From Novosphingobium sp. G106 (lineage in GTDB: Bacteria > Pseudomonadota > Alphaproteobacteria > Sphingomonadales > Sphingomonadaceae), in NCBI RefSeq assembly GCF_019075875.1, contig NZ_JAHOOZ010000001.1:806001-870000 (forward strand): a stretch of DNA of 64,000 nt. The letters are read 5' to 3'. Positions within the stretch are counted from its first letter, which is position 1. Each line of letters opens with the position of its first letter. A program made the position numbers and the translations under genes. Positions 1 through 20,755 of this stretch are shown one piece after another. The notes below the pieces were generated by a model. That model saw only the letters and a program-made list of their open reading frames with translations. It had not been told where the DNA came from and did no database searches.

Positions 1-561
1 GGCCCAGCCGATGCCGAGCCCGACATAACCACCGCGCCAGCCCCAGGTCTCGATCAGCAGCCGCGCGACCGTCGGACCCAGAGCCGTCGCGATCGCGCTG
101 CCGCAGAGCATCACCGCGAGCGCGAGGCCGCGCCCGCTGCTAAAGGCGGCGGAGATCGAGCTGCCCCATACCAGCGTGCGCGTGAGCAGCGAGGCGAGGG
201 TATAGGCGACCCAGATCAGCACCCACTGGTAGTACGGCCCGCTCATGAGGCCGAAGGCGGCGAAGCAGGTGCCACTGAGCAGCAGGCCGGGGAGTGCCAC
301 GCGCCGTGCGCCGAAGCGATCGACCAGGATGCCGGCGAAAGGCGCCAGCGGCATCGAGACCAGCGCGAAAATGGTCAGGCCGATCGATATCTCGGTCCGG
401 CTCCAGCCGAATTCGTCTCCGAGCGGCTGCATGAACAGTCCCAGCGTGGCCGTCGGCAGCGTGCCCACCGACATGCCGAACATGCCGGCAATGACCAGCA
501 ACCAGTAACGACGCCACTCCTGCGAGGCGGGTACACTGCCTGGATTTGCATTCGTCGGCAT
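1..561 (-). CDS. MFS transporter, N-terminal part (gene runs off the window start)
   Basis: Inner-membrane secondary transporter of the major facilitator superfamily; substrate unknown. The visible 187 residues begin MPTNANPGS and contain a short soluble leader, hydrophobic segments and the loop 2-3 motif A (GILVDRFGARR). The remaining helices lie before base 1. The start is the ATG at 561-559, preceded by GGAGAG on the minus strand. It has the same N-terminal plan (EWRRYWLLVIAGM against EWKAHWPLVIAGM) as the complete MFS protein just upstream in the same direction, so the two look like paralogues. Being in line with an LLM oxidoreductase and an F420 locus, it may import or export the substrate of that pathway; this is inference. 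Confidence 0.85.
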   Translation of the reverse strand, partial: MPTNANPGSVPASQEWRRYWLLVIAGMFGMSVGTLPTATLGLFMQPLGDEFGWSRTEISIGLTIFALVSMPLAPFAGILVDRFGARRVALPGLLLSGTCFAAFGLMSGPYYQWVLIWVAYTLASLLTRTLVWGSSISAAFSSGRGLALAVMLCGSAIATALGPTVARLLIETWGWRGGYVGLGIGWA

Positions 562-598: not shown

Positions 599-1873
599 TC
601 ACTCCGCCGGGGCGAGCTGGCTCCCTGCAATGGCCTCATCGGGCCTGGCGAAAGTGGGATAGGGGCCGAGCCCGACGAACATCAGCGAGCAGAGCAGCAT
701 GACCGGCATCGCCGTCCACAACAGCGCGGCGTAGGAACCGGTGGCATCGTGGATCGCGCCGGCGATCAGCGGGCCGAAAGACGAGCCGAGCATCATCGAA
801 CTGGCGATGACGCCGAAGATCACCCCGAAGTTGCGCAGTCCGGCATAGCGCGAGATCAGGTAGGTGCTCACCTGCAAGCCGGCGCCGGCGGAATAGCCGA
901 GGCACAGAGTGCCCGCGAGCAGGGCGATCGGCGTGTGGAACAGATCGATCAGCAGGAAATAGCCGATGGCACCGACCGCGAAGCTGCTGAAGGGGACCAC
1001 GCTACCCTGGACGCGGTCGAGCAGCCAGCCCGAAAGGAACTTGCCGGCAATCCCGCCGAATCCCGCAAAGGCCGCGATTTCCGCCGCCTCGGTCTTGCCC
1101 ACGCCAGTCTGCGCGATCAGTGGAACGAGGTGCACGGTGATGCCCGCGCCGACGAAGGACATCAGTAGATTGGCCACCGCGATGCGGATGACCCGCGAAT
1201 TGCGGCAGGCTTCGCCGATGGTCAGACCGGGCAGACGGGTCACCTCACCGGCAGCATTGGTCCTGCGCTGGCCCAAAGCATGGGCGTCATAGAACATCAG
1301 CGCCACCAGAACGGCTCCGAGGCCGGCCCAGCCAAAGCCGATCCAGACATAGGCGGCGCGCCAGCCCTGGGTCTGGATCAGCGCATTGGCCACCAGCGGC
1401 GCAAAGGCCTGGCCCAGCGCCGAGCCGGTGAGCACGGCGGCGAGCGCGAGGCCGCGGCTGGCAGTGAAGACGCTCGACGTGCCGGCGCTCCACACGGTCG
1501 ACTTGATCATGACCGAACAGAGCGAGAAGACGATCCACAGCACGACCCATTGCGTGATCGAACCGGTCGCCAGGCTGAGGCAGGCGAAAGTCGCGCCCGA
1601 CAGGATCAGCCCGAACAGCGCCATGCGCCGAGACCCGAACCGGTCGATCACCGCACCCATCACCGGTCCTGCGAACGTCGCGGAAAGCCCGAAGATGGTC
1701 AGGCCCAGCGAGATCTGGGCGCGGGTCCAGCCGAAGGCCTGTTCGAGCGGCTCCATGAAGGTGCCGAGCGAATAGGTGACCATCGAATAGAACGAAAAAC
1801 CGATCATCCCCGCGATGACCAGCGGCCAGTGCGCCTTCCATTCCTGGAGCGCGGTCCGTTCGGTTTGGCTCAT
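599..1873 (-). CDS. MFS transporter
   Basis: Complete 424-residue major facilitator protein, the usual length for a 12-helix carrier. Motif A (GAVIDRFGSRR) sits near residues 73-83, and repeated hydrophobic stretches fill the sequence. The N-terminus is short and cytosolic with no signal peptide. It lies 37 bases upstream of the truncated paralogous MFS gene and 25 bases downstream of the LLM oxidoreductase gene, all on the minus strand, so co-transcription is likely. Monocarboxylate-porter-like families share this layout, but I cannot name the substrate. Confidence 0.88.
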   Translation of the reverse strand: MSQTERTALQEWKAHWPLVIAGMIGFSFYSMVTYSLGTFMEPLEQAFGWTRAQISLGLTIFGLSATFAGPVMGAVIDRFGSRRMALFGLILSGATFACLSLATGSITQWVVLWIVFSLCSVMIKSTVWSAGTSSVFTASRGLALAAVLTGSALGQAFAPLVANALIQTQGWRAAYVWIGFGWAGLGAVLVALMFYDAHALGQRRTNAAGEVTRLPGLTIGEACRNSRVIRIAVANLLMSFVGAGITVHLVPLIAQTGVGKTEAAEIAAFAGFGGIAGKFLSGWLLDRVQGSVVPFSSFAVGAIGYFLLIDLFHTPIALLAGTLCLGYSAGAGLQVSTYLISRYAGLRNFGVIFGVIASSMMLGSSFGPLIAGAIHDATGSYAALLWTAMPVMLLCSLMFVGLGPYPTFARPDEAIAGSQLAPAE

Positions 1874-1898: not shown

Positions 1899-2819
1899 TT
1901 AGAAATCGATCTTGCTGATCACTTTCTCACCGAACTCCTGCGCCATGTCGCACCATTCGCTGCGCGTGGTGGCCGGGATGCTGGTGCCCGAGGCGGCGAC
2001 GCCGATCGACTTGAGATGCGCGTAGGAATCGATCGCTTCCTGGGCGCTCCAGCCCGGCGTCATCGCGAAAGTGCTCGAGGCGATCACCGACGGCGGCGTC
2101 TTGCGGCCGACCTTCTCGCAGTGCTCGGCCATGTATTCGATCGCGGCGATGATGTCCTCGTCGCCCGAGATATTGGCGGTGCGCGCGGTGTCGGTCACCA
2201 TCTTGGGGACGATGAACGGATGCCAGGCATCGCCGAGCTCGACCGTGCGGCGCAGCGCGCGCTTGGAATTGCCGCCGACCAGCAGCGGCGGGTGCGGCTT
2301 CTGCACGGGCGTAGGCAGCACGCGGTTGCCGACGGCGGTGTAGCCGGTGCCTTCGAACGAGAAGTCCTCCCCGGTCCAGGCCAGCTTCATCGCACGCATG
2401 TATTCGTCCATCAGGTCGTTGCGGCTATCGAAGTCGACGCCAAGCGCCTTGTATTCGGGCTTCAGGTAACCCGCGCCGAGGCCGAGCAGGACGCGGCCGT
2501 TCGAGAAGGCATCGAGCGACGACACGGCGCGCGCGGTGATGAACGGGTTGCGGTAGGGCAGCACGACGATGTTGGTCTGCAGCATGAGCTTGGTTGTGCA
2601 GGCCGCGACCATCGACAGCATGACGAAGGGATCCTGCGCATAGTGCCCGCCGTTATCGAGCCAGCGGTAGGACGGCACCGGGTGGTCGGTGACCGTGCCC
2701 GAATAGAAGCCCGCGGCTTCGGCTGCCTGCGAGCATTCCTTGACCGCGGCCATCGAGATGAACTCGTCGCCGTGCTGGATGTGGTCGAATGGAAGGGTGA
2801 CGCTGAGTGTGAAGGTCAT
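1899..2819 (-). CDS. LLM class (luciferase-like) oxidoreductase, probably F420-dependent
   Basis: A 306-residue TIM-barrel protein of the bacterial luciferase-like superfamily. Such enzymes use FMN or F420H2 to transfer hydride to or from alcohols, alkenes or nitro compounds. Family signatures visible are the TDHP loop near residue 44, the segment around RNPFITARAVSSLDAFSNGR and the GLGAGYLKPEYKALG motif, which resemble the Rv2161c-like group predicted to bind F420. The start has AGGA about 10 bases upstream. It is in one minus-strand run with cofC and the F420 reductase gene, which strongly favours F420 as the cofactor here. Substrate unknown; an FMN-dependent monooxygenase is the main alternative. 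Confidence 0.82.
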   Translation of the reverse strand: MTFTLSVTLPFDHIQHGDEFISMAAVKECSQAAEAAGFYSGTVTDHPVPSYRWLDNGGHYAQDPFVMLSMVAACTTKLMLQTNIVVLPYRNPFITARAVSSLDAFSNGRVLLGLGAGYLKPEYKALGVDFDSRNDLMDEYMRAMKLAWTGEDFSFEGTGYTAVGNRVLPTPVQKPHPPLLVGGNSKRALRRTVELGDAWHPFIVPKMVTDTARTANISGDEDIIAAIEYMAEHCEKVGRKTPPSVIASSTFAMTPGWSAQEAIDSYAHLKSIGVAASGTSIPATTRSEWCDMAQEFGEKVISKIDF

Positions 2820-2847
2820 TTAACAATATCCTGATAGCAATAAAAAA

Positions 2848-3705
2848 TCAGTCGGTGACTTCGGGCGGAAGGATCCAGTTGTCCTTGGAGTCGCGCACCC
2901 AGCCGCTCGAGGCCCAGGAGCCGCCGTCGACGGGCAGGATCGTTCCGGTGACATAGCTCGCCATCTTCGAGGCGAGGAACACCGCAGCCATGCCGCATTC
3001 CTCGTCGATGCCGGCGCGGCCCTGCGGCACGCGGGCGCGGACCGAGGCTTCGGCGCTGGGGCCGGGCTTGTACCATTTGCTCTCGTCGACCGGACCCGTG
3101 AAGTTGCCGCGGATGCCCGGCGTGACGGTGATGTCCGGGGCGATCGTGTTGACGCGGATGCCGTGTTCGGCAAGCTCAACCGCCAGGGTGCGGGTGAGGT
3201 TGTTGATGCCGGCCTTGCAGGCGGCATAAACGGCATAGCCCGGCGCCGCGCGCGAGCCTTCGATGCTCGACACGTTGATGATCGAGCCGCCGCGGCCGCC
3301 CTCGATCATGATCGGGATTGCGGCGGAAGTGGCGGCCAGGTTGCTGACCAGGTTGAGGTCGATGTGGCGCCGCCAGTTCTTTTCCAGCAGGTCCTTGAAC
3401 GCCCGCCGGGTGACGCCCCCGGCATTGTTGACCAGAATATCGAGCCGGCCGAAGCGCTCGCCCGTCGAGGTCACTGCTTCGGCGACCTTGTCGGCTTCCA
3501 TGACGTTGTAGGGGAAGGTCAGCACTTCGCGGCCGCGCTCGCGGACTCGCGCGGCTACTTCGTCGCAGCGCTCGGGAATGTTGTCGATCACCGCCACGTT
3601 GGCACCCATGTCGGCCATGCACAGCGCGATCGCGCGGCCGATGCCGCCGCCGCCGCCGGTGACGAGTGCCACCTGTCCGGTCAGATCTATCGCGCTTGCA
3701 TCCAT
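2848..3705 (-). CDS. SDR family NAD(P)-dependent oxidoreductase
   Basis: Classical short-chain dehydrogenase of 285 residues. The nucleotide-binding motif TGGGGGIG is at residues 17-24, NNAG at 93-96 and the catalytic Ser/Tyr/Lys at about S147, Y160 and K164 (YAACK). It ends with a typical SDR C-terminal region around TGTILPVDGG. An AGGAAG ribosome-binding site lies upstream. Position between the LLM enzyme and cofC in one transcription unit suggests it oxidises or reduces an alcohol/ketone in the same pathway; substrate unknown. Confidence 0.88.
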   Translation of the reverse strand: MDASAIDLTGQVALVTGGGGGIGRAIALCMADMGANVAVIDNIPERCDEVAARVRERGREVLTFPYNVMEADKVAEAVTSTGERFGRLDILVNNAGGVTRRAFKDLLEKNWRRHIDLNLVSNLAATSAAIPIMIEGGRGGSIINVSSIEGSRAAPGYAVYAACKAGINNLTRTLAVELAEHGIRVNTIAPDITVTPGIRGNFTGPVDESKWYKPGPSAEASVRARVPQGRAGIDEECGMAAVFLASKMASYVTGTILPVDGGSWASSGWVRDSKDNWILPPEVTD

Positions 3706-3730
3706 TTCCCAGCTTCCTCTTCCTGGCGGC

Positions 3731-4309
3731 CTACTCTTTCAGCAGCGCCGCCGCATCGATCAGATCGTCAGGCTCATCGACATCCCGCGCGAGGCCTTGA
3801 CTGTGAATTTCCTCGAGCCTCAGGCCGATCCGATCGGCTTCGGCCTTGTGCCGTGCAAAGCTGTCAGTCCCGAAGGCGAATGAAAAGCCCTTTGCTGCCG
3901 GCAGCGGCAAGGAAATCGCATTGGTCCCGGTGCCGTGGCGGTCCGGTGCAATCGCGATCGTTCCGGCGGGCGCTGCGGCCAGCAGTTCGATGTCCTGCGC
4001 GGTGACCAGTGGCAGGTCGGCGTGGATTACGATGAGGCGGCTCGCTTCCGCCTGGGCGAGGGCCGAGGCGGCCGCGGCATTGAGCCCGCCGCCCGGATCG
4101 CTCAGCACCGCGACATCGCCAGGCAGCGCCGTCCGCGACGTGCCCATCAGGCAGACCCGCGAGACGTTGCGCGCGCCGCATGCCGCGTCTACCACCCGTT
4201 CCAGCATCGCATCGACCAGTGCCGCGCGCGCCGGGGCGTCGAGCACCCCGGCGAGCCGGCTCTTGCTGTCCGGCGTGGCCCTCAGCGGTATGACGGCCCA
4301 GACGGTCAT
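3731..4309 (-). CDS. cofC: 2-phospho-L-lactate guanylyltransferase (CofC/FbiD)
   Basis: Nucleotidyltransferase that activates a three-carbon phosphoacid (2-phospholactate, phosphoenolpyruvate or 3-phosphoglycerate, depending on lineage) with GTP to give the donor used by CofD in F420 synthesis. The 192-residue protein has the expected length and CofC signatures: an N-terminal AVIPLR/K-type nucleotide loop (SKSRL), HADLPL, DRHGTGTNA, FGTDSFARH and LARDVDEPDDL near the C-terminus. Its ATG begins one base after the stop of the F420 reductase gene, so the two are probably translationally coupled. Which phosphoacid it prefers cannot be told by eye. Confidence 0.92.
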   Translation of the reverse strand: MTVWAVIPLRATPDSKSRLAGVLDAPARAALVDAMLERVVDAACGARNVSRVCLMGTSRTALPGDVAVLSDPGGGLNAAAASALAQAEASRLIVIHADLPLVTAQDIELLAAAPAGTIAIAPDRHGTGTNAISLPLPAAKGFSFAFGTDSFARHKAEADRIGLRLEEIHSQGLARDVDEPDDLIDAAALLKE

Positions 4310-4310
4310 C

Positions 4311-4964
4311 TTATGGGATCGCGGGGGCTGCGGTCAGTCCGGTGAAGCGGATGCCCGCGCCGTCGGCCTTGTAGGTCTTGTTCATGTAGATCAGCAGCGA
4401 GGTGATCGCTTCGGCCGCGGCCGAATTGACCAGCGCGCCGCCAGAAAGCCCGCGCAGGTCCATGTCGTTCACCAGACCGACGACGGTGTTGCGCGCTTCG
4501 ACGTCGTCGCTGAACACCAGAACGTCGCAATCAACTTTGGCATCCGTATCAAGGATATGCGCGGCGACATTGTGAAACGCCGTGACGAAGCGGATATCGG
4601 GTCCCAGGTGCTCGCGCGCTTCGGCGGCGGCGCTGCCTGCGGCGGGAAGCTGGACGCGCATGACCTTGGGCGGCACCAGCGGCACCGTCGTGTCGACGAC
4701 GATCGCCGAGCCGACCTTGTCCTTGATCTGCTTTAGCGTGGCTTCCTGGTTCTCGTAGGGGACGGTGACGATCACTACGTCCTTGCCGACCGCGGCGTCG
4801 TCATTCGACGCGCCCTTGGTGCCCAGGCCCATTTCGGCGGCGATGCCTTCAGCCTTCTCCGCCGCGCGGCTACCGATGGTGACATCGTGTCCGGCTTTGG
4901 CCAGACGGCGGGCAATGCCCTTGCCGAGGTGGCCCGTGCCGCCGATGACTGCGATGGATGCCAT
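4311..4964 (-). CDS. npdG: NADPH-dependent F420 reductase (Fno/NpdG-like)
   Basis: Interconverts NADPH and F420H2, supplying reduced F420 to F420-dependent enzymes in the cytosol. The 217-residue protein opens with a Rossmann motif GGTGHLG at residues 8-14 followed by TIGSR, the NADP-contacting segment of this family. VTVPYE and the C-terminal part (TGLTAAPAIP) fit Fno/NpdG in length and order. The start has CGGAGAG six bases upstream. It is the first gene of the minus-strand F420 run and diverges from cofE. A generic NADP-binding oxidoreductase would be the alternative without this context. Confidence 0.9.
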   Translation of the reverse strand: MASIAVIGGTGHLGKGIARRLAKAGHDVTIGSRAAEKAEGIAAEMGLGTKGASNDDAAVGKDVVIVTVPYENQEATLKQIKDKVGSAIVVDTTVPLVPPKVMRVQLPAAGSAAAEAREHLGPDIRFVTAFHNVAAHILDTDAKVDCDVLVFSDDVEARNTVVGLVNDMDLRGLSGGALVNSAAAEAITSLLIYMNKTYKADGAGIRFTGLTAAPAIP

Positions 4965-5079
4965 ATGAACTCTCCGGATTCTGTCGTTGCTTGCACGGGC
5001 TCATGCCGATAGCGGCTGGGTACGCCAAGCCATAAAAGCGAAATTGCGAAAGATTTTTCCTGTGAGCGAACAGAACGAG
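4965..5079. promoter_or_regulatory. Divergent promoter region between npdG and cofE
   Basis: This 115-base gap separates the two oppositely transcribed halves of the F420 locus and must hold both promoters. It is richer in A and T near its right end (CATAAAAGCGAAATTGCG). I could not identify convincing -35/-10 pairs or an operator. Confidence 0.45.
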
Positions 5080-5871
5080 ATGTCCCGCGCGCTAACCGTC
5101 ACGCCTTTGCATGGCATGCCTCTGTTCACTACCGGAAGTTCGGTCGCGCGCGAAATCGCAGCAGCGATGCAGCGTGCGGACGTCGCGCTGGGCGACGGCG
5201 ACGTCGTGGTCGTGGCGCAGAAAATCGTCTCGAAGGCCGAGGGAAGGACCGCAAGGCTGCGCGACGTTACGCCAGGCGACGAGGCGGTGCGGCTGGCCGG
5301 CGAGACGGCGCGCGAGCCGCAGGCGGTGCAACTGATCCTCGACCAGTCGAGCGAGATCCTGCGCGCGCACCCCGCTGCAATCATCGCGCGGCATCGGACC
5401 GGGCACGTCCTGGCCAATGCCGGGATAGATGCTTCCAACGTCGAGGGCGGCAATGTCGAGGGCGGCGAGGACGACAAGGTCCTGCTCTGGCCTATCGACC
5501 CGGACGCCAGCGCGCGAGCGATCCGTGCCGAACTGTTCGTGCTCACCGGCCGGCGCCCGGCCGTGGTCATAGCCGACTCGATGGGCCGCGCCTGGCGGAT
5601 CGGCACGGTGGGCACAGCGATCGGCTGCGCCGGGCTCTGCGTCGTCGATGACCGGCGCGGCGTGGACCAGGACCTCTATGGGCGGACATTGCAGGCGACG
5701 ATGATCGCGGTGGCCGATGCCGTCGCGGGCGCGGCGGTGCTGGTCATGGGTGAGGGCGCCGAGGGCGTCCCCGCGACCTTAGTGCGCGGCGTCAGCCGCT
5801 GGGTTTCGGACGACGACGGGCCGGGAATGGTCGCGGGCCTGCGCCCGGTAGAACAGGATATGTTTCGATGA
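5080..5871 (+). CDS. cofE: Coenzyme F420-0:L-glutamate ligase (CofE)
   Basis: GTP-dependent ligase that adds gamma-linked glutamates to F420-0. From the ATG at 5080 it is 263 residues, close to stand-alone CofE. An in-frame GTG at 5062 and an ATG at 4987 are possible longer starts, but family proteins begin near the LTVTPLHGMP segment. Signatures are GDVVVVAQKIVSKAEG (40-55), GHVLANAGIDASNVEGG (109-123) and IADSMGRAWRIGTVG (about 164-178). NVEGG occurs twice in a row (120-129). The nitroreductase-like C-terminal domain found in mycobacterial FbiB is absent. It overlaps cofD by four bases (ATGA), indicating coupling. Confidence 0.92.
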   Translation: MSRALTVTPLHGMPLFTTGSSVAREIAAAMQRADVALGDGDVVVVAQKIVSKAEGRTARLRDVTPGDEAVRLAGETAREPQAVQLILDQSSEILRAHPAAIIARHRTGHVLANAGIDASNVEGGNVEGGEDDKVLLWPIDPDASARAIRAELFVLTGRRPAVVIADSMGRAWRIGTVGTAIGCAGLCVVDDRRGVDQDLYGRTLQATMIAVADAVAGAAVLVMGEGAEGVPATLVRGVSRWVSDDDGPGMVAGLRPVEQDMFR

Positions 5872-6812
5872 GTGGTCATGTACTTGCGCTTTCCGGAGGC
5901 GTCGGTGGCGCGAAGCTTGCGGCGGGCCTCGCCGCGGTGCTGCCGCCCGAGCAATTGACGATCGCGGTCAATACCGGCGACGACTTCGAGCATCTCGGGC
6001 TCACCGTCTGTCCGGACATCGACTCGGTGACCTATGCACTCGCCGGGCTCAACGACACCGAGCGCGGCTGGGGTATCGTCGACGAGTCGTGGCGGACTAT
6101 GGAGCGGCTCGGCGCGCTCGGTGAGGCGACGTGGTTCAACCTCGGCGACCGCGACATGGCGATGCATATCGCCCGCTCGTGGCGGCTGCGCGCGGGCGAA
6201 AGCCTGTCCGAGATCACCGCGCGGCTGACTTCCGCGCTGGGCATTGCCCACAGGGTCGTGCCGATGAGCGACGCACCAGTGCGCACCCAGGTCGAGACCG
6301 GGGACGGCTGGCTCGACTTCCAGCACTATTTCGTCCGCGAGCAATGCCGCCCGGCTGCCAGGGCGATCCGCTTCGAGGGCACGCCGGGCGCGGCGATGTC
6401 TCCGGGGCTGGCCGAGGCGCTGGGGCGCGACGATCTCGCCGCGGTGATCCTCTGCCCGTCAAATCCTTTCCTCAGCGTCGATCCGATCCTTGCGGTCGAC
6501 GGGGTGCGCGACGCGCTGGCGGCACGCGACGTACTTTTCGTCGCGGTGTCTCCGCTGGTTGGCGGCCAGTCGCTCAAGGGACCGCTGGGCAAGCTGCTCG
6601 GGGAGCTCGGCCGCGAGAATAGCAACCGTGCCATTGCGGAGCACTATGCCGGCCTGCTCGACCATCTGATAATCGACGAGGCCGACGCCGCTGACGCTGA
6701 GGGCTTGCGCGCCATGGGAATTTGCGCAACGGTAACGGGAACAGTCATGTACGGAGCTGCTGAACGGGAGCGGCTCGCGCGCGTAGCACTGTCAGCTGCC
6801 CGACTTGGATAG
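5868..6812 (+). CDS. cofD: 2-phospho-L-lactate transferase (CofD/FbiA)
   Basis: Transfers the phosphoacid moiety from its GDP- or GPP-activated form to Fo, giving F420-0 or an analogue. The 314-residue protein shows the hallmark GGVGGAKLAAGL at residues 10-21, NTGDDFEHLGL at 35-45, WFNLGDRDMAMH at 89-100, CPSNPFLSVDPIL around 200 and VSPLVGGQSLKGP around 227. Length and order match CofD fully. It sits between cofE (4-base overlap) and fbiC (6-base gap) in one plus-strand operon. Confidence 0.95.
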   Translation: MSGHVLALSGGVGGAKLAAGLAAVLPPEQLTIAVNTGDDFEHLGLTVCPDIDSVTYALAGLNDTERGWGIVDESWRTMERLGALGEATWFNLGDRDMAMHIARSWRLRAGESLSEITARLTSALGIAHRVVPMSDAPVRTQVETGDGWLDFQHYFVREQCRPAARAIRFEGTPGAAMSPGLAEALGRDDLAAVILCPSNPFLSVDPILAVDGVRDALAARDVLFVAVSPLVGGQSLKGPLGKLLGELGRENSNRAIAEHYAGLLDHLIIDEADAADAEGLRAMGICATVTGTVMYGAAERERLARVALSAARLG

Positions 6813-6818
6813 GATGAC

Positions 6819-9143
6819 ATGGCACTTGCTGACCGTGAGCTGATTACACGCCTCCTGACTTCGCCTCTGGAAGATGTCCTCGCCGAAGCCTGCGCGCGCC
6901 GCGATGCGCGCGGTCCGGCCCGGATGACCTACTCCCCGAAGGTCTTCATTCCGCTGACACGGCTCTGCACCGACGTCTGCCACTACTGCACTTTCGCGAC
7001 CACGCCCTCGCAGGTTCACGCGCCCTACCTGACGCCCGAGGAAGTGCTCGACATCGCCCGCGCCGGTGCTGCCGAGGGCTGCAAGGAAGCGCTGTTCACG
7101 CTCGGCGATGCTCCCGAGCGCCGCTACGCCGCCGCGCGCGACTGGCTGGCCGAGCGCGGTTTCAGCCGCACGATCGACTATGTCCGCCACTGCGCCGAGC
7201 TGGTGCTCAAAGAGACCGGCCTGCTGCCGCACGTCAACGCGGGCGTGCTCGAAGAGGCCGACTACCTGATGCTGCGTCCGGTCGCGGCCTCGTGCGGGCT
7301 GATGCTGGAAAGCACTTCGACCAAGATCCTCGAAAAAGGCGGGGCGCATTACGGCTCGCCCGACAAGGTGCCGGCCGTGCGCTTGGCCTCGCTCAAAGCC
7401 GCTGGCCGCGCGCGGGTGCCGATGACTTCGGGCATCCTGATCGGCATCGGCGAGACGCCTGAGGAGCGCATCGAGTCGCTGATCGCGCTGCGCGACGTGC
7501 ATCTGGCCCACGGCCACCTCCAGGAAATCATCGTCCAGAACTTCTGCCCCAAGCCCGGCACAAAGATGGCCGAAGCGCCCGAGGCGACCGAGGCTGATTT
7601 CCTGCGCGTGATCGCCGCCGCGCGGATCATCCTGCCAGACGAAGTCTCGGTCCAGGCACCGCCCAATCTCAACGACGAGCGACTGGTCGAGCTGATCGGC
7701 GCGGGCATCGACGACTGGGGCGGCATCTCGCCCGTCACGCGCGACCATGTGAACCCCGAGGCGCCCTGGCCCGAGATCGAGCGGATGGAAGCGATCTGCG
7801 CGCGCGAAGGCCTGCCATTGGTCGAGCGTCTGACCGTCTATCCACGCTTCGTCGCCACCGATGATCTCTCGTGGATCGACGCCAAGCTGCGTCCGGCCGT
7901 GCTCAAGCTGTCCGACGCCGAGGGCCTCGGCCGCGACAGCCGCTGGAGCCCCGGCGTTTCCGATCACGCGCCCGCTACGCCTGCGCTGCCGCTCGGCCGT
8001 CGTTATGAGGGCCCGACCACGCCGGCGCTGCACCGCATCCTCGATCGTGCCGCCGGTGGCAACGAGCTGTCGGTCGAAGACATCGTCGCGCTGTTCGCCA
8101 CGCGCGGCGCCCAAGCCCAGGCCGTGGTCGAAGCGGCTGACACGCTGCGCCGCGAGGCCAAGGGCGAGACGGTGACCTATGTCATCAACCGCAACATCAA
8201 CTACACCAACATCTGTACCCATTCGTGCAGCTTCTGCGCCTTCTCGAAGACCAGCTCCAAGGGCGGTTTCCGCGACAAGCCCTACAACCTCGACCTCGGC
8301 GAGATCGCCGACCGTGCGCGCGAGGCCGTAGCCAAGGGCGCGACCGAGGTCTGCCTGCAGGGCGGCATCCATCCGACCTACACGGGCGACACCTATGCGA
8401 GCATCGTCCGCGCGGTGAAGGACGCCTGCCCGGATCTCCACGTCCATGCCTTCTCGCCGCTTGAAGTGTCGCAGGGTGCGAAGACGCTGGGTGTTTCGGT
8501 TAGCGACTACCTGAAGCGGCTCAAGGACGAGGGGCTGGGCTCACTGCCCGGCACCGCCGCCGAGATACTCCACGACGACATCCGCGCGCAGATCTGCCCC
8601 GACAAGCTGACCACGGCCGAATGGCTCGGCGTGGTGCGCGACGCCCACCTGGTCGGCCTGCCGACGACCTCGACGATCATGTACGGCCACCTCGAGCGGA
8701 CCGAGCACTGGGCGCACCACTTGCTCGCCCTGCGGCGGCTTCAGGAGGAAACCGGCGGCATCACTGAATTCGTGCCGCTGCCGCTCGTTCACATGGAAGC
8801 GCCGATGTACCGGCGCGGGCAGAGCCGCAAGGGTCCGTCCTGGCGCGAGGCGCTGATGATGCACGCGGTGGCGCGGCTCGCGCTCTACGGGCAGATCGAC
8901 TCGATCCAGTGCTCGTGGGTCAAGCTCGGCGTCGATGGCGCCGCGGCGGTGCTCGCGGCCGGTGCGAACGACCTCGGCGGCGTGCTGATGAACGAAAGCA
9001 TTAGCCGCGCGGCGGGCGCCAGCCACGGGCAGGAGCTCAGCGTCGACGAACTGTTCCACGCCGCGGCTTCGGCCGGGCGGCCGCTCAAGCGGCGCACGAC
9101 GCTTTACAAGATGCTGGACGAGGCGGAGCCGGAGATCGCTTAG
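6819..9143 (+). CDS. fbiC: Fo synthase, fused CofG-CofH (FbiC)
   Basis: Makes the deazaflavin Fo from 5-amino-6-ribitylamino-uracil and tyrosine using two radical-SAM centres in one chain. The 774-residue protein carries a first CxxxCxxC cluster motif (C50, C54, C57 in CTDVCHYC) for the CofG half and a second (C466, C470, C473 in CTHSCSFC) for the CofH half. The halves are joined around residues 390-440. It is somewhat shorter than mycobacterial FbiC (about 856 residues). Separate CofG and CofH proteins are usual in archaea, so the fused form resembles the actinobacterial type. It ends the cofE-cofD-fbiC operon and is followed by a REP-like doublet. Confidence 0.96.
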   Translation: MALADRELITRLLTSPLEDVLAEACARRDARGPARMTYSPKVFIPLTRLCTDVCHYCTFATTPSQVHAPYLTPEEVLDIARAGAAEGCKEALFTLGDAPERRYAAARDWLAERGFSRTIDYVRHCAELVLKETGLLPHVNAGVLEEADYLMLRPVAASCGLMLESTSTKILEKGGAHYGSPDKVPAVRLASLKAAGRARVPMTSGILIGIGETPEERIESLIALRDVHLAHGHLQEIIVQNFCPKPGTKMAEAPEATEADFLRVIAAARIILPDEVSVQAPPNLNDERLVELIGAGIDDWGGISPVTRDHVNPEAPWPEIERMEAICAREGLPLVERLTVYPRFVATDDLSWIDAKLRPAVLKLSDAEGLGRDSRWSPGVSDHAPATPALPLGRRYEGPTTPALHRILDRAAGGNELSVEDIVALFATRGAQAQAVVEAADTLRREAKGETVTYVINRNINYTNICTHSCSFCAFSKTSSKGGFRDKPYNLDLGEIADRAREAVAKGATEVCLQGGIHPTYTGDTYASIVRAVKDACPDLHVHAFSPLEVSQGAKTLGVSVSDYLKRLKDEGLGSLPGTAAEILHDDIRAQICPDKLTTAEWLGVVRDAHLVGLPTTSTIMYGHLERTEHWAHHLLALRRLQEETGGITEFVPLPLVHMEAPMYRRGQSRKGPSWREALMMHAVARLALYGQIDSIQCSWVKLGVDGAAAVLAAGANDLGGVLMNESISRAAGASHGQELSVDELFHAAASAGRPLKRRTTLYKMLDEAEPEIA

Positions 9144-9282: not shown

Positions 9283-10479
9283 TCAACCCCGCATATAGAC
9301 CGTCAGCGACCTGATCTTGCCCTCGTCGTCGAACCGGTAATGGTTCGTCGTGTGCCGCACGCTGCCGTCGGGCAGCTGCGCCTCGATCTCCGCCGCTATA
9401 CCTTCCGATCCCACGAACCGGCCGCCCGGATTGGGGAAGGGAGAGCCCGAACCGAACACCATCGTCTGGAACTCGCGGATCGCAGCCTTACCCTCGAAGA
9501 CCTGGCCATTCGGCAAGGCATAGGTCGCGTCCTCGGCGAACAGCGCCATCCAGGCGTCGATGTCCTTGGCGCGCACGGCCGCGAAATAGGCGTCGACCGT
9601 TGCCGAGCGATCGGCAGGGGCGGGCTTGCCTTCGGCCTCCGCGGCGGCGCGACGGAGCCGAGCCAGCATGACGTCGCAGGAGGCGAGCAGGCCGGCGAGC
9701 TGCGTGGTCTCGCGCACCTCCAACTCGCGGCAGTGATCGACGTCCTTCTTGAGCAGATCGTGCAGGCCCCGGATGCTCCCGGTTGCGCCCGTGCCTTCGC
9801 GCGGCAGGACCATGCCGGGACCGACGCGCAAGGCGAAGCTCTGCGCCGAACCGGCCATGAAGGCGTCGATCAGCTGCTGACGATCGAAGCCCATGTCGAC
9901 GCCGATATCGACGATCGCCGCCGACATGCCGTAGTTGGCGATCGAGATCAGGTTGTTTAGCAACTTGCCTTCCTGCCCCCGGCCGACGGGGCCGAGGTGG
10001 GCGAGGTTCTTGCCGATCGCCTCGAGCCAGGGCCGGGCACGTTCCAGGTCTTCCGGTTCGGCGCCGACGTAAAGCGAGAGCTGGCCCTCGATCGCCGCCG
10101 GGCCGCCGCCCGAGACGCCGACGTCGACGAAACCGACGCCGTATTCCCTGGCTTTGGCAGCCAGCTTCTGCGCGAGCTCGGGCGAGACGGTCGAATGCAG
10201 GATCACCGTGCCGCCTTGGCCCAGCGCCTCGAACAGCCTGCCGTCGCCGGCCACGCTTTCGAGCTGATCGTCGGTCCGTACGCAGATGCCGAGCAATTCG
10301 GATTTCCCCGCCGTCTCGATCGGATCGCTGGTCGTCTCGGTTCCCGGCTCGTCGAAGGCGGCGAGCATTTCGGGCGAGTTGTCGCAGCCGATCACGGCGA
10401 AGCCGCTGCGCGCCAGCCGCCGCGCGATCGGCGCGCCCATGGAACCGAGGCCGATGAAGCCTGCGCGCGGCGTGCTCAC
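9283..10479 (-). CDS. Beta-hydroxyacid dehydrogenase fused to a C-terminal NTF2/SnoaL-like domain
   Basis: The first ~285 residues are a 3-hydroxyisobutyrate dehydrogenase-like enzyme: GFIGLGSMGAPIARRL near residues 7-22 binds NAD(P), VSGGGPAA is the substrate loop and the Lys in QEGKLLNN is the expected catalytic residue. Residues ~290-398 (TVDAYFAAVRAKDIDAWMALFAEDATYALPNG onward in short) form a SnoaL/NTF2-like domain. I chose the GTG at 10479 because it overlaps the preceding SDR stop codon as GTGA and directly precedes the Rossmann motif; a longer frame reaches 10548. The fusion is unusual, since the two domains are normally separate genes. Confidence 0.85.
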   Translation of the reverse strand: MSTPRAGFIGLGSMGAPIARRLARSGFAVIGCDNSPEMLAAFDEPGTETTSDPIETAGKSELLGICVRTDDQLESVAGDGRLFEALGQGGTVILHSTVSPELAQKLAAKAREYGVGFVDVGVSGGGPAAIEGQLSLYVGAEPEDLERARPWLEAIGKNLAHLGPVGRGQEGKLLNNLISIANYGMSAAIVDIGVDMGFDRQQLIDAFMAGSAQSFALRVGPGMVLPREGTGATGSIRGLHDLLKKDVDHCRELEVRETTQLAGLLASCDVMLARLRRAAAEAEGKPAPADRSATVDAYFAAVRAKDIDAWMALFAEDATYALPNGQVFEGKAAIREFQTMVFGSGSPFPNPGGRFVGSEGIAAEIEAQLPDGSVRHTTNHYRFDDEGKIRSLTVYMRG

Positions 10480-11261
10480 GGCCGCATCACCCAGCCGCCG
10501 TCGATGTGGATCACCTGGCCGGTGATCCAGGCGCCGGCTTCGGAGCACAGCAGGATCGCCGCGCCGACCAGCTCATCGGGCTCGCCGCGGGGGCGGGTCG
10601 CGCAGGTCATCTGGAGGAACTGGATGAACGGGCTGTCGTCGGGTACGAGCAGCTTGCCGGCGTCGGACTTGACGTTGCCCGGCGCAATCGCGTTGCAGGT
10701 GATGTTGTCCTTGCCCCACTGCTTGGCGAGCGAGGTGGTCAGACCTACCAGCGCCAGCTTCGAGATGCCGTAGAGGCTGGTCGCGGGGAAGGCACCGCCC
10801 GAGGTCTGGTTGACTATCCGCCCGCCGCCGCGCTCGCGCATCGAGGGTGCGACCGCTCGGGCGCAGAGGAGCGCGCCGGTCAGGTTGACCGCGAAGGCCT
10901 TGTTCCAGGCCTCGACCGAGACCGTGTCGATCGAGTCGTAGGACACGTCGACCATCAGCGCGGCGTTGTTGATCAGGATGTCGACGCCGCCGAAAGCCGC
11001 TTTGGCCGCTTCCGCCATGGCCAGCGTCTGTTCCTCGTTGGAGACATCGACGCCTACCGCGATGGCCTTGCCGCCCGCCGCATTGATCTCGTCGGCGACG
11101 ATCTGGGCGCCGTCCTTGTTGAGGTCTGCGACGACCACCGAGGCGCCGGCATTGGCGAAGCCCAGCGCATAGGCGCGGCCGATCGAATTGCCGCGGCCGC
11201 CGGCGCCGGTGACGACGGCGACCTTGCCGTCGAGGCGGAACTGGTCGAGCGAGAATGCCAT
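10476..11261 (-). CDS. SDR family oxidoreductase
   Basis: A 261-residue classical SDR: TGAGGRGNSIGRA replaces the common TGxxxGIG with a slightly longer glycine loop near residues 17-26. NNAA is present, and the catalytic set is S in NQTSGGA with YGISK. It ends with the usual WITGQVIHIDGG segment. It is translationally coupled to the next gene (GTGA overlap) and sits in a minus-strand operon of dehydrogenases. Probably a hydroxy/keto step on the same substrate; not assignable further. Confidence 0.86.
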   Translation of the reverse strand: MAFSLDQFRLDGKVAVVTGAGGRGNSIGRAYALGFANAGASVVVADLNKDGAQIVADEINAAGGKAIAVGVDVSNEEQTLAMAEAAKAAFGGVDILINNAALMVDVSYDSIDTVSVEAWNKAFAVNLTGALLCARAVAPSMRERGGGRIVNQTSGGAFPATSLYGISKLALVGLTTSLAKQWGKDNITCNAIAPGNVKSDAGKLLVPDDSPFIQFLQMTCATRPRGEPDELVGAAILLCSEAGAWITGQVIHIDGGWVMRP

Positions 11262-11286
11262 TTTCGATTTCCTATCAAAATCCGTC

Positions 11287-11371
11287 CATCCTGAGCTTGT
11301 CGAAGAACTGTCCTTCTTGCGGCAGGTGCTGGGACGAAGAAAAAATGCAGCCCTTCGACAAGCTCAGGGTG
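11287..11371. repeat. REP-like inverted doublet, family C copy 1
   Basis: Arms at 11287-11310 and 11348-11371 are inverted copies with the core CTGAGCTTGTCGAAG. They match in 21 of 24 positions and flank a 37-base spacer. It sits between two same-strand genes of one likely operon. A second copy of the family is at 40976-41061. Confidence 0.82.
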
Positions 11372-11394
11372 ATCGGGGTTAGGTGGTTAGCGGA

Positions 11395-12198
11395 TCATTC
11401 CGGATTGGCCGCGGCGAGGAAGCGCGCAGAAATGGCGGCGATCTCGTCCGCGCCTTCATGGCCGGGGAGAACCGCCTTGAGCAGGTTCATGTCCTTGAGC
11501 AGCATCGGCGCGCCGGTGGCGAAGGCCGCGGGCGAAGGCAGGCGGGCGAAGACGCCGAAGCCGAAGCTGTTGCCGCTGCTCGCGGGGATTAGCTCGACGA
11601 AGGCCGCGCGGTCGATGCCGAGCGCCTGCGCCGCCTCGATCGCCGCCTGAGCTACGCCCATGTGCGCCGAGAGCATGGCGTTGTTTACGATCTTGGCGCG
11701 CTGGCCGGCACCGGCGGGGCCGAGCAGCGGGATCAGCCGGCCGAAGGTCTTGAACACCGGCAGGGCAGCCTCGTAAGCCTCCTGCCGCCCGCCGCACATC
11801 ACGGTCAGCGTGCCCGCCTCGGCGCCGGGTGAGCCGCCGCTGACCGGGGCGTCGATGAGCTGGAGGTCGCGCGCGTCGCACTGGGCTTCGAGCTTGGCGA
11901 CGGTCTCGGGCAGGATCGTCGAATGGATCGCGATGCGGCTGCCGGGCTTCATCACGGGGATGAGCTGGTCGGTGATCGACAGCACGTCGGCATCGTTGAC
12001 CACGCAGATGCCGACATGGTTGCAGGCCGCGCCGAGCTCGGCGACGGTAGCCGCCGCTTTCGCACCCTTGGCCGTATAGGCCTCAAGCACTTCGGGCCGC
12101 CGCGCCCAGACGACGAGGTTCATGCCCGCGTCGACGATGCGGTGCGCCATGGGGCCGCCCTGGCTGCCGACGCCGATGAAGCCGATGGTTTCGCTCAT
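11395..12198 (-). CDS. NAD(P)-dependent beta-hydroxyacid dehydrogenase
   Basis: A 267-residue member of the 3-hydroxyisobutyrate/tartronate-semialdehyde reductase family. GFIGVGSQGGPMAHRI at the N-terminus binds the nucleotide, DAPVSGGSPGAE is the substrate-binding signature and the Lys in RAKIVNN is the catalytic position. It lacks the NTF2-like tail of its relative two genes downstream. It starts six bases after the upstream SDR stop codon, so co-translation is likely. Confidence 0.88.
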   Translation of the reverse strand: MSETIGFIGVGSQGGPMAHRIVDAGMNLVVWARRPEVLEAYTAKGAKAAATVAELGAACNHVGICVVNDADVLSITDQLIPVMKPGSRIAIHSTILPETVAKLEAQCDARDLQLIDAPVSGGSPGAEAGTLTVMCGGRQEAYEAALPVFKTFGRLIPLLGPAGAGQRAKIVNNAMLSAHMGVAQAAIEAAQALGIDRAAFVELIPASSGNSFGFGVFARLPSPAAFATGAPMLLKDMNLLKAVLPGHEGADEIAAISARFLAAANPE

Positions 12199-12204
12199 AT
12201 GCCC

Positions 12205-12960
12205 TCAGCCTGCCGTTATGCCGGCATCGATCGAGATGCAGGCGCCGTGATAGGAACGCCCCGCGGGCGAGGCGAGCAGCGCGAAGAGGTCGGCGACGTC
12301 GTCCACCTCGACCTGGCCGCGCAGGCCCGAGAAGCGCTGGATCAGATCGTACTCGACGCCCTCGGGCATGGTCATGCCGTTGGCGATGTTGGTTATCATC
12401 CCGCCCGGCGCGACCGCGTTGATGCGGATCGGCTTGCGCGAATATTCCATCGCCATGGACTTGGTCATGTTCAGGATTCCCGCCTTGCTCGCGCAATAGG
12501 CCGCGGCATAGGCCTCGCCGATGAGCGCTGCCGAGGAGGCGCAGTTGACGATCGCGCCATTGCTCTCAAGCAAATGCGGGATCGCCGCCTGCGAGAGGAA
12601 GAACGGTGCATTGAGGTTGACCGCGATGGTCAGCAGGTAGTCGCTCTGCGCCATCTCGTGGCTGTTGGCGAACTTGACGATCCCCGCGATGTTGCAGAGC
12701 GCATCGAGCCGGCCGAACTTCGCCACCGCCGCCGCCACCGCGCCCTTGCAGGCCTCGGGCTCGGCGAGGTTGGCGACGTGGGTCAGGACCTGCACGCCGT
12801 CCAGCATCGCCGCGGTCTCGGCCAGGGCATCGGCGTTGACGTCGACGATGCAGAGGTCCGCACCGGCCTGGGCGAGCTTGACCGCGGTCGCGCGGCCTAG
12901 CCCCGATGCGGCGCCGGTCACCAGCGCCGCTTTGCCCTTCATGTCGATTTCAATGCCCAT
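12205..12960 (-). CDS. SDR family oxidoreductase
   Basis: A 251-residue classical SDR with TGAASGLGRATA near residues 16-27, a shortened CNIAG in place of NNAG and a Ser/YCASK catalytic set. It starts three bases after the stop of the carboxymuconolactone-decarboxylase-like gene, in the run of minus-strand genes headed by the aldehyde dehydrogenase. Substrate unknown. Confidence 0.87.
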   Translation of the reverse strand: MGIEIDMKGKAALVTGAASGLGRATAVKLAQAGADLCIVDVNADALAETAAMLDGVQVLTHVANLAEPEACKGAVAAAVAKFGRLDALCNIAGIVKFANSHEMAQSDYLLTIAVNLNAPFFLSQAAIPHLLESNGAIVNCASSAALIGEAYAAAYCASKAGILNMTKSMAMEYSRKPIRINAVAPGGMITNIANGMTMPEGVEYDLIQRFSGLRGQVEVDDVADLFALLASPAGRSYHGACISIDAGITAG

Positions 12961-12963
12961 GTC

Positions 12964-13749
12964 TTACTCGTTCCAGCCAAGGCCGGCTTCGACCTTCTGT
13001 GCCATCTGCATGATGATCCCGTTGACCAGCGAGGCGCGCGGCCAGCCGGCGTGGACGCCGTATTGAAGCGAGAACTCGAGCATCTCTTCGCGGGTGCAGT
13101 TGCCGCTCTTCATGCCCGCATAGAAGTGCGACTTGATCGGGATTTCGGCAGCGCTGTTGGCGACGGCGACCAGCGTGATCCAGCGGCGCGCGCGCTCGTC
13201 GAGACCCGGACGCCACCACATCTCGCCGAAGACGAAGTTGTTGATCGCTTCCTGGAACGGGTTCGACGAAGGCCCGCCGGGGAAGGTCATCGTCTTGGTG
13301 AATTCGGCCTGGCCCTTCTCGCCGCGCTCGACGGGATCCCAGGCTTCACCACGGATCGGCGGACATTCGGCGGGCTTGAGGCCCAGCGCCTGCTGCGCGC
13401 GGTTGATCGCCGCGTCGAGTTCCTGGCCGCGCGGCCAGCCGCCATAGACCGAGAGATGCAGCGCCGCCTCGCGCAGTTCGGCAAGGCTCAGCTCGCCGCT
13501 TTTCAGCGCACCACGGACGTAGCCGTCGATCATCGCGTCGCCGGCGGCGCTCATCACCGCGCCGGCCATCGAGATCAGATAGCGCGAACGGCGGTCGAGG
13601 CCGGGCCGGCTCCAGACTTCGGCATAGACGAAGTCGCGGACGGACTCCTCTACCGGCGTGCCCGCTGGCGCAGGAGACTGGCCGTTGACCTCGGCCTGCA
13701 GCGCAATGCCGCGATCGGTTCTTTCCCGGGGATCGAGTAACTGGCTCAC
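12964..13749 (-). CDS. Double carboxymuconolactone decarboxylase-like (CMD/AhpD-fold) protein
   Basis: The 261-residue protein contains two tandem CMD-type halves. One ends around VYGGWPRGQELDAA and the other around VHAGWPRASLVNG, each preceded by an RSRYLIS/RARRWIT-type helix. The CxxC pair of AhpD peroxidases is absent, so a thiol-peroxidase role is unlikely. Gamma-carboxymuconolactone decarboxylase is one known activity of the fold, but many such proteins are uncharacterised. It overlaps the aldehyde dehydrogenase stop by four bases, showing it belongs to that operon. Confidence 0.83.
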   Translation of the reverse strand: MSQLLDPRERTDRGIALQAEVNGQSPAPAGTPVEESVRDFVYAEVWSRPGLDRRSRYLISMAGAVMSAAGDAMIDGYVRGALKSGELSLAELREAALHLSVYGGWPRGQELDAAINRAQQALGLKPAECPPIRGEAWDPVERGEKGQAEFTKTMTFPGGPSSNPFQEAINNFVFGEMWWRPGLDERARRWITLVAVANSAAEIPIKSHFYAGMKSGNCTREEMLEFSLQYGVHAGWPRASLVNGIIMQMAQKVEAGLGWNE

Positions 13750-15233
13750 TGTCCGCCTCCCAGCTTTGCGACGTTCATGTAGACGTTCTTGGGTTGCATG
13801 AATTCGTGCAGCCCCTCTATGCCGCCGAGCCGGCCGTGGCCGCTCTGCTTCCAGCCGCCGAACGGGACGTTGGGCTGCATCGCCTCGCCCGAGCCGTTGA
13901 CCTGGATCTGGCCGGCCTGCAGCTCCCGCGTGACGTAGTGCGCGCGGTGCAGGTTGGTGGTGTGGACGTAGGCGCCGAGGCCGTAGGGCGTGCCGTTGGC
14001 CAGCGCGATCGCCTCGTCCTCGGTGTCGAAAGGCGTGACCGCCAGAACCGGTCCGAACACTTCGTTCTGCGCGATTTCGCTCTCGTGAGCGACATCGGCG
14101 AGGATGGTCACCGGCAGGTAGAAACCGTCAGCATGGTCGCCGCCCAGCCGCTCCCCGCCCGAGACGAGGCGGCCGCCCTGCGTGATGCCGCGCTCGACCA
14201 TGCCGAGGATGCGGCTGATCGCCGGCTCGGAGATGACAGGGCCGAGCGTGGTCGCCTGATCCATCGGATCGCCGACTTTGATATGGCCGGCCATCGCGCT
14301 CAGGGTCTGGAGATAGGCATCATAGACGCCGCGCTGCACGAGCAGCCGAGTGCCGTTGACGCAGCCCTGGCCGTTCGCCGAAACGGCGCCCGAGAGCCCG
14401 CGCTTGGCCGCATCCTGCAAGTCGGCGTCGTCGAAGACGATGACCGCCGATTTGCCGCCCAGCTCCAGCCCGACAGGCTTCAGGCTCTGCGCGGCGCTGG
14501 TGAGGATCTTCTTGGCGGTCGCGCCCGAGCCGATGAATTCGATCTTGTCGACACCCGGATGCGCGACCAGCGCCTCGCCGGCATCGGGGCCGCCCGTGAC
14601 GAGATTGACCACGCCCGCCGGAAAGCCGGCTTCCTGGATCAGTTCGACCAGCTTCATCGGGCTGTACGGCGCGAGCTCCGGCGCCTTGAGGACGATGCAG
14701 TTGCCCGCCGCCAGGGCCGGGGCCATGACCATCGTCGCTGCGAACAGCGGGCCGTTCCACGGCACGATGACGCCGACGACGCCGTAGGGTTCGTAGTTGA
14801 CGAAGTCGTGCACCTCGCCCTGCCACATCGGGATCGTGCGGCCGTGGATCTTGTCGGCCCAGCCGCCGAAGTAGCGGAACTTCTGCGCGGCATCGTAGCC
14901 CATGTAGTTGGCGAAGGCCGCAAGCGAGCCGTTCTCGGCAATCAGCGAGGGGCCGAACTCGGCCGATTTCGCCTCGAACAGGGCGGCGAGCTTGAAGAAC
15001 AGGTCGCGGCGCTTGTCGCCGGGCATGGCGCGCCAGGCGGGAGCGGCGGCGCGCGCAGCGGCCACGGCGCGATCGACGTCATCGGCATTGGCCATCGTGA
15101 TCTCGCGGGTGACAGTGCCGGTACCGGGATAGACGTGAGCGAGGGTCGCGCCGCTGCCCTTTTCCTCACGGGTGTCGCCGATGATCAACGGATAGCGCGG
15201 CAGCGCGTCGAGCGCCGGTTGCCTGAAGGCCAT
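13746..15233 (-). CDS. Aldehyde dehydrogenase family protein
   Basis: NAD(P)-dependent oxidation of an aldehyde to an acid. The 495-residue length is typical. E257 in LELGGK and C291 in NGQGC occupy the catalytic general-base and nucleophile positions, and VIVPWNGP marks the cofactor site. I prefer the ATG at 15233 because GGAGAGG lies seven bases upstream; the open frame extends 15 codons further without a better signal. First gene of the minus-strand catabolic operon, divergent from a GntR-type regulator that probably controls it. Confidence 0.9.
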   Translation of the reverse strand: MAFRQPALDALPRYPLIIGDTREEKGSGATLAHVYPGTGTVTREITMANADDVDRAVAAARAAAPAWRAMPGDKRRDLFFKLAALFEAKSAEFGPSLIAENGSLAAFANYMGYDAAQKFRYFGGWADKIHGRTIPMWQGEVHDFVNYEPYGVVGVIVPWNGPLFAATMVMAPALAAGNCIVLKAPELAPYSPMKLVELIQEAGFPAGVVNLVTGGPDAGEALVAHPGVDKIEFIGSGATAKKILTSAAQSLKPVGLELGGKSAVIVFDDADLQDAAKRGLSGAVSANGQGCVNGTRLLVQRGVYDAYLQTLSAMAGHIKVGDPMDQATTLGPVISEPAISRILGMVERGITQGGRLVSGGERLGGDHADGFYLPVTILADVAHESEIAQNEVFGPVLAVTPFDTEDEAIALANGTPYGLGAYVHTTNLHRAHYVTRELQAGQIQVNGSGEAMQPNVPFGGWKQSGHGRLGGIEGLHEFMQPKNVYMNVAKLGGGQ

Positions 15234-15366
15234 GATGTCCTCTCCATGGGCGAGGCAAGGGGCCTCGCGAATCGTCATAATTAAATAGGCATATTTTTAG
15301 GCTGGCAAGCGGAATATGATGCGAGTATCATCGTCCTATCGATAAAAACATGCACATAATTGGATT
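15234..15366. promoter_or_regulatory. Divergent promoter region with palindromes, aldehyde dehydrogenase / GntR regulator
   Basis: This AT-rich gap between divergent genes holds ATGAT-N6-ATCAT at 15316-15331. The perfect palindrome CATAAT-TGG-ATTATG at 15355-15369 runs into the regulator's start codon. These are candidate operators for the GntR-type protein. No ribosome-binding site is seen before the regulator start. Confidence 0.55.
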
Positions 15367-17909: not shown

Positions 17910-17933
17910 CGTCAGGGTCCTTCTTCCCGATGT

Positions 17934-18941: not shown

Positions 18942-19084
18942 CGGAGCATTGTGTCTCTGATTAAACGGTCTGTCCCGGAATCTACAGATAGCGAGGTTGC
19001 GGCACAAGCGCGTCGGGAGGAAATCTGCGCGCCATAACGCGCCTGGGAAAAGGCGCCGTTCGCTCATGCCGAGGAGAGATGTTC
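18942..19084. promoter_or_regulatory. Divergent promoter region, AraC regulator / SDR operon
   Basis: A 143-base gap between divergent start codons. Promoters for both genes must lie here. GAGGAGA at 19072-19078 is the ribosome-binding site for the SDR start at 19085. I see no clear operator repeat. Confidence 0.4.
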
Positions 19085-19894: not shown

Positions 19895-19903
19895 ACGGTA
19901 TTC

Positions 19904-19927
19904 GCGCGGCCCGTTTCGCCGCGCTTT
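19904..19927 (+). other. Intercistronic hairpin between the tandem SDR genes
   Basis: GCGCGGC (19904-19910) pairs with GCCGCGC (19918-19924) and is followed by TTT, directly before the AGGAGG ribosome-binding site of the next gene. It could partly end or stabilise the transcript. Confidence 0.5.
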
Positions 19928-19937
19928 AGGAGGAATA

Positions 19938-20732: not shown

Positions 20733-20755
20733 TCGGCGACCTGGGAGAAAAGACG

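Follow-up and report, generated by a model that had tools for sequence, protein, structure and literature searches.

A coenzyme F420 biosynthesis locus in Novosphingobium sp. G106 with a linked LLM-SDR gene pair as candidate user

The locus at positions 1899..9143 of a 64,000-nucleotide stretch of the Novosphingobium sp. G106 genome (contig NZ_JAHOOZ010000001.1; hereafter the window) raises the question of whether this bacterium makes coenzyme F420, in which form, and for which enzyme. A first-pass annotation of the same DNA had described a complete F420 biosynthesis locus in a probable sphingomonad, with genes for an LLM-class oxidoreductase, an SDR-family dehydrogenase and two MFS transporters alongside, and had proposed a dedicated F420-dependent catabolic step. 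On the evidence set out below, it appears likely that the locus makes F420 and supplies the reduced form to the LLM, which would act together with the neighbouring SDR in a catabolic route. The genome that contains the window is 7.2 Mb in size, and the sphingomonad host was borne out. A genome given as congeneric, G288, encodes CofD and FbiC identical to those of Novosphingobium album B2580 (L113), which places the host in Novosphingobium or a close split of that genus.

The identities of the synthesis genes were assessed by applying curated NCBIfam cut-offs to the window proteins, with Pfam as a second scan that agreed and also revealed the MFS and SDR; the named genes are the open reading frames at the positions given by the first-pass annotation (Table 1). 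All five of the genes it had named, cofC, fno/npdG, cofE, cofD and a fused fbiC, scored above the curated cut-offs, and the predicted identities are far beyond chance matches. The two halves of FbiC, CofG and CofH, also exceed cut-offs of their own (TIGR03550 and TIGR03551), and both radical-SAM CX3CX2C motifs, at residues 50 and 466, are intact, consistent with the signature motifs reported earlier. CofE carries PF01996 alone in the Pfam scan, the nitroreductase domain being absent, and falls below the cut-off of a second CofE model, NF009809 (225.8 vs 274 bits); its solved relatives are 2phn, 7uld and 2g9i. CofD aligns with its solved relatives 3c3d and 6uvx across almost the whole length, and the best solved relative of Fno is an F420:NADP oxidoreductase, 5n2i (E 4.2e-43).

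These genes fall into two divergent transcription units, as previously described: a minus-strand unit, MFS-LLM-SDR-CofC-Fno, and a plus-strand unit, CofE-CofD-FbiC. The region between them presumably holds the putative promoters of both units. A 12-base palindrome, GCCGCTATCGGC, lies 5' of fno at 5005-5016 on the minus strand, and 11 of the 27 loci aligned, counting the window, have its core, GCTATCGG, upstream of this gene. Within the window the palindrome is not clearly above chance, with 4 matches (at most one mismatch) where 1.31 are expected, and 6 of 100 shuffles reach 4 matches.

Table 1. Features of the F420 locus and its flanks in the window, with the evidence for each.
Feature	Position	Strand	Evidence
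Second MFS gene, start only, crosses left window edge	1..528	-	tblastn
MFS transporter, possible substrate carrier	599..1873	-	PF07690 134 bits
LLM-class oxidoreductase, probably F420-dependent	1899..2819	-	TIGR03619 222.9 bits (cut-off 166.9)
SDR-family dehydrogenase, partner of LLM	2848..3705	-	PF13561 197.3 bits
CofC guanylyltransferase, 2-phospholactate/phosphoenolpyruvate type	3731..4309	-	TIGR03552 144.5 bits (cut-off 105)
Fno/NpdG, NADPH:F420 oxidoreductase	4311..4964	-	TIGR01915 182.8 bits (cut-off 149.8)
Divergent intergenic region	4965..5079		Sequence; 27-locus alignment
CofE, F420-0:gamma-glutamyl ligase, single domain	5080..5871	+	TIGR01916 243.7 bits (cut-off 180.65)
CofD transferase	5868..6812	+	TIGR01819 280.3 bits (cut-off 257.45)
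FbiC, fused CofG-CofH FO synthase	6819..9143	+	NF006687 1093.7 bits (cut-off 1018)
Neighbouring block, F420 link uncertain	9283..16089		Pfam

In the route that we propose, FbiC would make FO, CofC would activate 2-phospholactate or phosphoenolpyruvate (PEP), rather than 3-phosphoglycerate (3PG), using GTP, CofD would join the activated precursor to FO, and CofE would add the glutamate tail. Were PEP the precursor, an enzyme not recognised here would have to reduce dehydro-F420. Fno, which the first-pass annotation had taken for the reductase, would serve as the recycling enzyme, reducing F420 with NADPH. On the user side the MFS protein would carry the substrate, the SDR would oxidise a hydroxyl group, and the LLM would add or remove a hydride with F420. 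The sequences themselves show gene identities, motifs, conserved order and co-occurrence; these activities, the order of the SDR and LLM steps and the role of the MFS protein we infer. Of the two MFS genes claimed, one is complete in the window. The other is present in part, crossing the left edge, with a tblastn match of 46% to a complete MFS in locus L046 (9314-10528) that reaches about window position 528.

One tie between the LLM-SDR pair and F420 is gene order. Named genomes were scanned for the LLM gene, and sphingomonads account for nearly all of the 39 loci that resulted. In 24 of these 39, Novosphingobium resinovorum (L119) and N. guangzhouense (L121) among them, the window's gene order recurs on the same strands (LLM-SDR-CofC-Fno / CofE-CofD-FbiC), so that its arrangement, when compared across sphingomonad genomes, is an ordinary one; an MFS match adjoins the LLM in 13 of the 24. 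An SDR of at least 45% identity lies within 300 bases of the LLM at 34 of the 39 named loci, and 29 show two or more F420 genes within the flank that was fetched. F420 genes also adjoin the pair, in arrangements that differ from the window's, in further sphingomonad genera (L062, L063, L068 and L073) and likewise in bins of Caulobacter (L140) and Hydrocarboniphaga (L141) and in Solimonas terrae (L142). A Verrucomicrobia bin (L143) has the LLM, the adjacent SDR being absent. The repeated linkage across different backgrounds is what points most clearly to a putative working unit.

Is the LLM itself F420-dependent? One could argue that the locus makes F420 while the LLM is a flavin mononucleotide (FMN)-dependent monooxygenase whose proximity to F420 genes is incidental, an account that we regard as unlikely. 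The LLM is by cut-off a member of TIGR03619, a family named as F420-dependent, which speaks against the FMN account. In that account's favour, a Foldseek search with the predicted LLM structure (pLDDT 91.9) places the FMN enzymes SfnG and MsuD first. FGD2 and Mer stand lower in the list with TM-scores similar to those of the FMN enzymes, so F420 and FMN are not told apart by the fold. Solved chains give partial matches only, at E 5e-16 or weaker, and the best of them include FMN-type enzymes. A protein search recovered 3498 relatives of the LLM at E 1e-30; among the 120 of them listed is P0054 of Haliea sp. E17, 78% identical. Haliea is a genus outside the sphingomonads.

The FMN account fares less well when the distribution of the LLM is considered. 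Among the 298 family genomes that were sampled, 43 have the gene for CofD (41 of them above cut-off), and these represent 25 of 96 genera. With presence set at E 1e-30 or better, the LLM occurs in 18 of the 298, and all 18 are among the 43 cofD genomes (hypergeometric 1.9e-17); counted by genus, 12 of 12 fall inside the 25 of 96 (8e-9). For comparison, (i) PF04075, by name F420H2-dependent reductases, is likewise accompanied by cofD in 18 of 18 genomes, that of G152 being below the curated cut-off, while (ii) the FMN-type control family TIGR03860 has cofD in 22 of its 52 genomes, being enriched among cofD genomes and not bound to cofD. PF00296, the luciferase-like family, was found in 270 of the 298 (at most seven candidates scored in each); it gave no discrimination and was left unused. 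Ten of the 39 named loci are without a linked F420 set. The genomes of seven of these were searched and cofD was present in all seven, in one of them (L131) inside the flank itself, the remaining three loci lying in assemblies already covered (L132 with L130, L133 with L144, and L136 with L117). Among the genomes searched, the LLM is thus found only in those with cofD, 18 of 18 plus 7 of 7, with one genome apparently in both sets, as that of L134 seems to be G031 of the 298-genome sample (identical CofD). Together, the synteny and the co-occurrence with cofD uphold the earlier linking of the LLM-SDR pair to F420, and from them we infer the cofactor choice of the LLM.

Several results weigh against this reading, including, besides the order of the Foldseek list, those on the last reduction of the cofactor that are given below. 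Enrichment in cofD genomes is also seen for FMN-type LLMs (2.4e-8). Because the genomes are related, co-occurrence overstates independence, and only a limited set of candidates was scored in each genome (at most seven for the LLM, 13 for PF04075 and five for TIGR03860); the probabilities are therefore guides. Five of the 39 named loci have no such SDR beside the LLM. Finally, the genome of strain G106 contains 47 matches to PF00296 at E 1e-10, at least two of which exceed the FMN-type cut-off of TIGR03860, as well as five matches to PF04075. F420 consequently need not serve the LLM-SDR pair alone and probably serves several enzymes in this host, and a dedicated step, in the sense of a single F420 user, is not supported.

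The form of the cofactor depends on CofC and on what follows it. Passages of PMC8764529 name eight residues through which M. tuberculosis FbiD makes its contacts, and a serine diagnostic of 3PG use (S162 of Mrhiz-CofC). By alignment, K16, L76, D98, T129, G147, S150, D176 and D178 of the window CofC match all eight contacts, and Gly147 stands at the column of the diagnostic serine. Two key columns are Gly and Ser in 74 of 74 aligned loci, and the Leu column has Leu in 71, Thr in two and a gap in one, a set in which the window is counted twice (L046 and L077) and certain other genomes recur. Since the FbiD contacts are kept and glycine occupies the 3PG-diagnostic column, the precursor would be 2-phospholactate or PEP; the predicted CofC is of the 2-phospholactate/PEP type, not the 3PG type.

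If PEP is the precursor, dehydro-F420 must be reduced, which in PMC8498797, in the passages cited here, is assigned to the C-terminal domain of FbiB or to FbiE. No dehydro-F420 reductase in the G106 genome exceeded the TIGR03553 cut-off of 249.55 among 37 of 37 candidates, the best, a weak nitroreductase candidate at C1:1502040-1502555, scoring 49.9 bits, and none did so in the 298 family genomes, with at most ten candidates scored in each. Weak TIGR03553 matches at E 1e-15 occur in seven of the 298, three of them cofD genomes. This lack of an FbiE above the cut-off makes "complete" too strong a word for the locus, and raises the prospect that dehydro-F420, or another F420 variant, is the final cofactor for want of the reductase. 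We hold that to be rather improbable. None of 14 control genomes reached the TIGR03553 cut-off either, leaving the sensitivity of this model to separate FbiE proteins unproven, so the step is not proven absent and a divergent nitroreductase could carry it out. There are 14 PF00881 matches in the G106 genome; BLAST of nitroreductase reading frames against the locus proteins matched L111 alone, a weak result, for which 10 of the 14 were used and some frames, that of the best TIGR03553 candidate included, came from the wrong strand. The CofC proteins of Paracoccus and Oligotropha are reported in passages of PMC8764529 to use 2-phospholactate best in vitro, a reductase-free route, with the caution that such assays cannot separate 2-phospholactate from PEP as the natural substrate. 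F420 itself, in traces, is reported from both organisms in passages of PMC8498797.

That 3PG-F420 is made instead, as in Mycetohabitans, might be supposed from the solved relatives of CofC (7p97, 2i5e and 6bwg), of which the 3PG enzyme 7p97 scores highest, and from the stand-alone CofE, also a trait of the 3PG pathway as outlined in PMC8498797. We rejected 3PG-F420 as highly improbable on the diagnostic residue, because glycine (Gly147 in the window) replaces Ser/Thr at the Mrhiz-CofC S162 position, in the window as in 74 of 74 aligned loci; at a second position named in passages of PMC8764529, the window CofC has Leu instead of Met. That the synthesis genes are a decaying relic, as might be read from Novosphingobium sp. 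MW5 (L131, genome G495), where cofD is the only synthesis gene in the fetched flank and stands beside LLM-SDR, is the least credible account, since all the window genes are intact with their motifs kept, 24 of the 39 named loci preserve their order, and the MW5 genome keeps two fbiC loci elsewhere.

Earlier, proteobacterial F420 loci had been presented as scattered; this impression of rarity does not stand within the family, given the 43 cofD genomes and the recurrence of the window's order. In 200 genomes drawn from the phylum, cofD was found in four, that of strain G106 among them. The CofD tree (82 rows) and the FbiC tree (52 rows) each place the Novosphingobium-type sequences in one clade (support 100/100), and in both the window stands beside L107 and L137, both named Novosphingobium, which are also its nearest CofD rows. 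With few rows from outside the family, these trees say little on ultimate origin. A supported group distinct from that of the window holds the CofD rows of L062, L063, L068, L073 and L140. Three family genomes carry two full cofD loci each, G017 (L031/L058), G150 (L054/L040) and G204 (L032/L073), and on the tree the distance between the two CofD copies is large in G150, moderate in G204 and small in G017.

Compared with the bacterial F420 pathway (FbiC, FbiD/CofC, FbiA/CofD, FbiB/CofE) as given in passages of PMC8498797, the window encodes the same enzymes, FbiC being fused, with the CofC contact residues of M. tuberculosis FbiD and with Fno as F420 reducer. It differs in that CofE is without the FbiB nitroreductase domain, no separate FbiE passes the cut-off, and the locus adds the LLM-SDR pair and an MFS gene. 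The F420 producers Paracoccus denitrificans and Oligotropha carboxidovorans, as described in passages of PMC8498797 and PMC8764529, belong to the same class (Alphaproteobacteria), and a CofC that prefers 2-phospholactate is expected as a shared trait, whereas the Novosphingobium-type locus is linked to LLM-SDR. Linkage of LLM and F420 genes as such is not new, LLM genes being drawn near F420 genes according to the Figure 10 legend of PMC8498797. An F420 pathway in this genus has also been noted already: a passage of PMC13318209 counts coenzyme F420 biosynthesis among the cofactor genes of six Novosphingobium strains, giving in that passage the category only and no locus, user enzyme or pathway gap. 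Within TIGR03619 the window LLM has no close member with a solved structure. Among the titles and abstracts listed for F420 with sphingomonads (Novosphingobium and Sphingomonas included) or Solimonas, we found no paper on the locus or the LLM-SDR module.

For the catabolic role proposed in the first-pass annotation, the support lies only in neighbouring genes, and that part of the claim stands to this extent. Where the pair is apart from F420 genes, as in L133, its neighbours include genes of the TauD-family dioxygenase, phosphotriesterase-family, 2-hydroxyacid dehydrogenase, FAS1-like dehydratase and CoA-ligase types. Nearby genes in L141 are of the FAD_binding_2, alpha/beta hydrolase and AMP-binding kinds, and L142 has a FAS1-like dehydratase. 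These neighbours suggest that the LLM-SDR pair may act in a CoA-linked degradation route.

In the window, the block that follows fbiC holds two 3-hydroxyisobutyrate-dehydrogenase-like genes, an SDR, a CMD-family gene, an aldehyde dehydrogenase, a further SDR-like gene and, by reading, a putative GntR-like regulator with no Pfam match at 1e-8. One of the two 3-hydroxyisobutyrate-dehydrogenase-like genes has a SnoaL domain, fused to an NAD-binding dehydrogenase. Parts of the block are also found in L037, L107, L131, L137 and L144, and it separates FbiC from a sulfotransferase gene and its small neighbour, whose clusters occur on the FbiC side in 20 of 40 LLM-bearing loci (window included); these clusters come from a crude gene caller that shortened some starts and are used for this neighbourhood remark only. 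The region 16746-27272 contains the sulfotransferase family gene, an AraC-type regulator, an SDR, an alcohol dehydrogenase, an alkyl-sulfatase-like metallo-beta-lactamase-fold gene and a GTP-binding/APS kinase fusion, and a role in sulfate ester metabolism is possible. Farther along, 41121-43337 encodes a protein of 738 amino acids with the N- and C-terminal domains of acyl-CoA dehydrogenase twice each in one chain.

We tentatively extend these observations, at somewhat less than even confidence, to the idea that LLM-SDR is an obligately F420-dependent catabolic module of two enzymes with an undescribed reaction, a module that has spread in sphingomonads, in Caulobacter and in Nevskiaceae and has been joined anew to F420 genes from different lineages, the F420 being finished without FbiE by way of 2-phospholactate or an unknown reductase. 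In itself, the locus is of a known kind, well conserved in its host group and accompanied by a clear candidate user module. It sharpens the question of where the saturated lactyl side chain comes from in bacteria that have no recognisable FbiE. According to a passage of the 2021 review (PMC8498797), experimental studies of F420-using or F420-reducing enzymes had yet to be made in producers other than Actinobacteria. The LLM and SDR are specific candidate F420 users in named Novosphingobium species, and, as the cofactor genes lie next to them, deletions of fbiC and of the LLM gene would be directly comparable.

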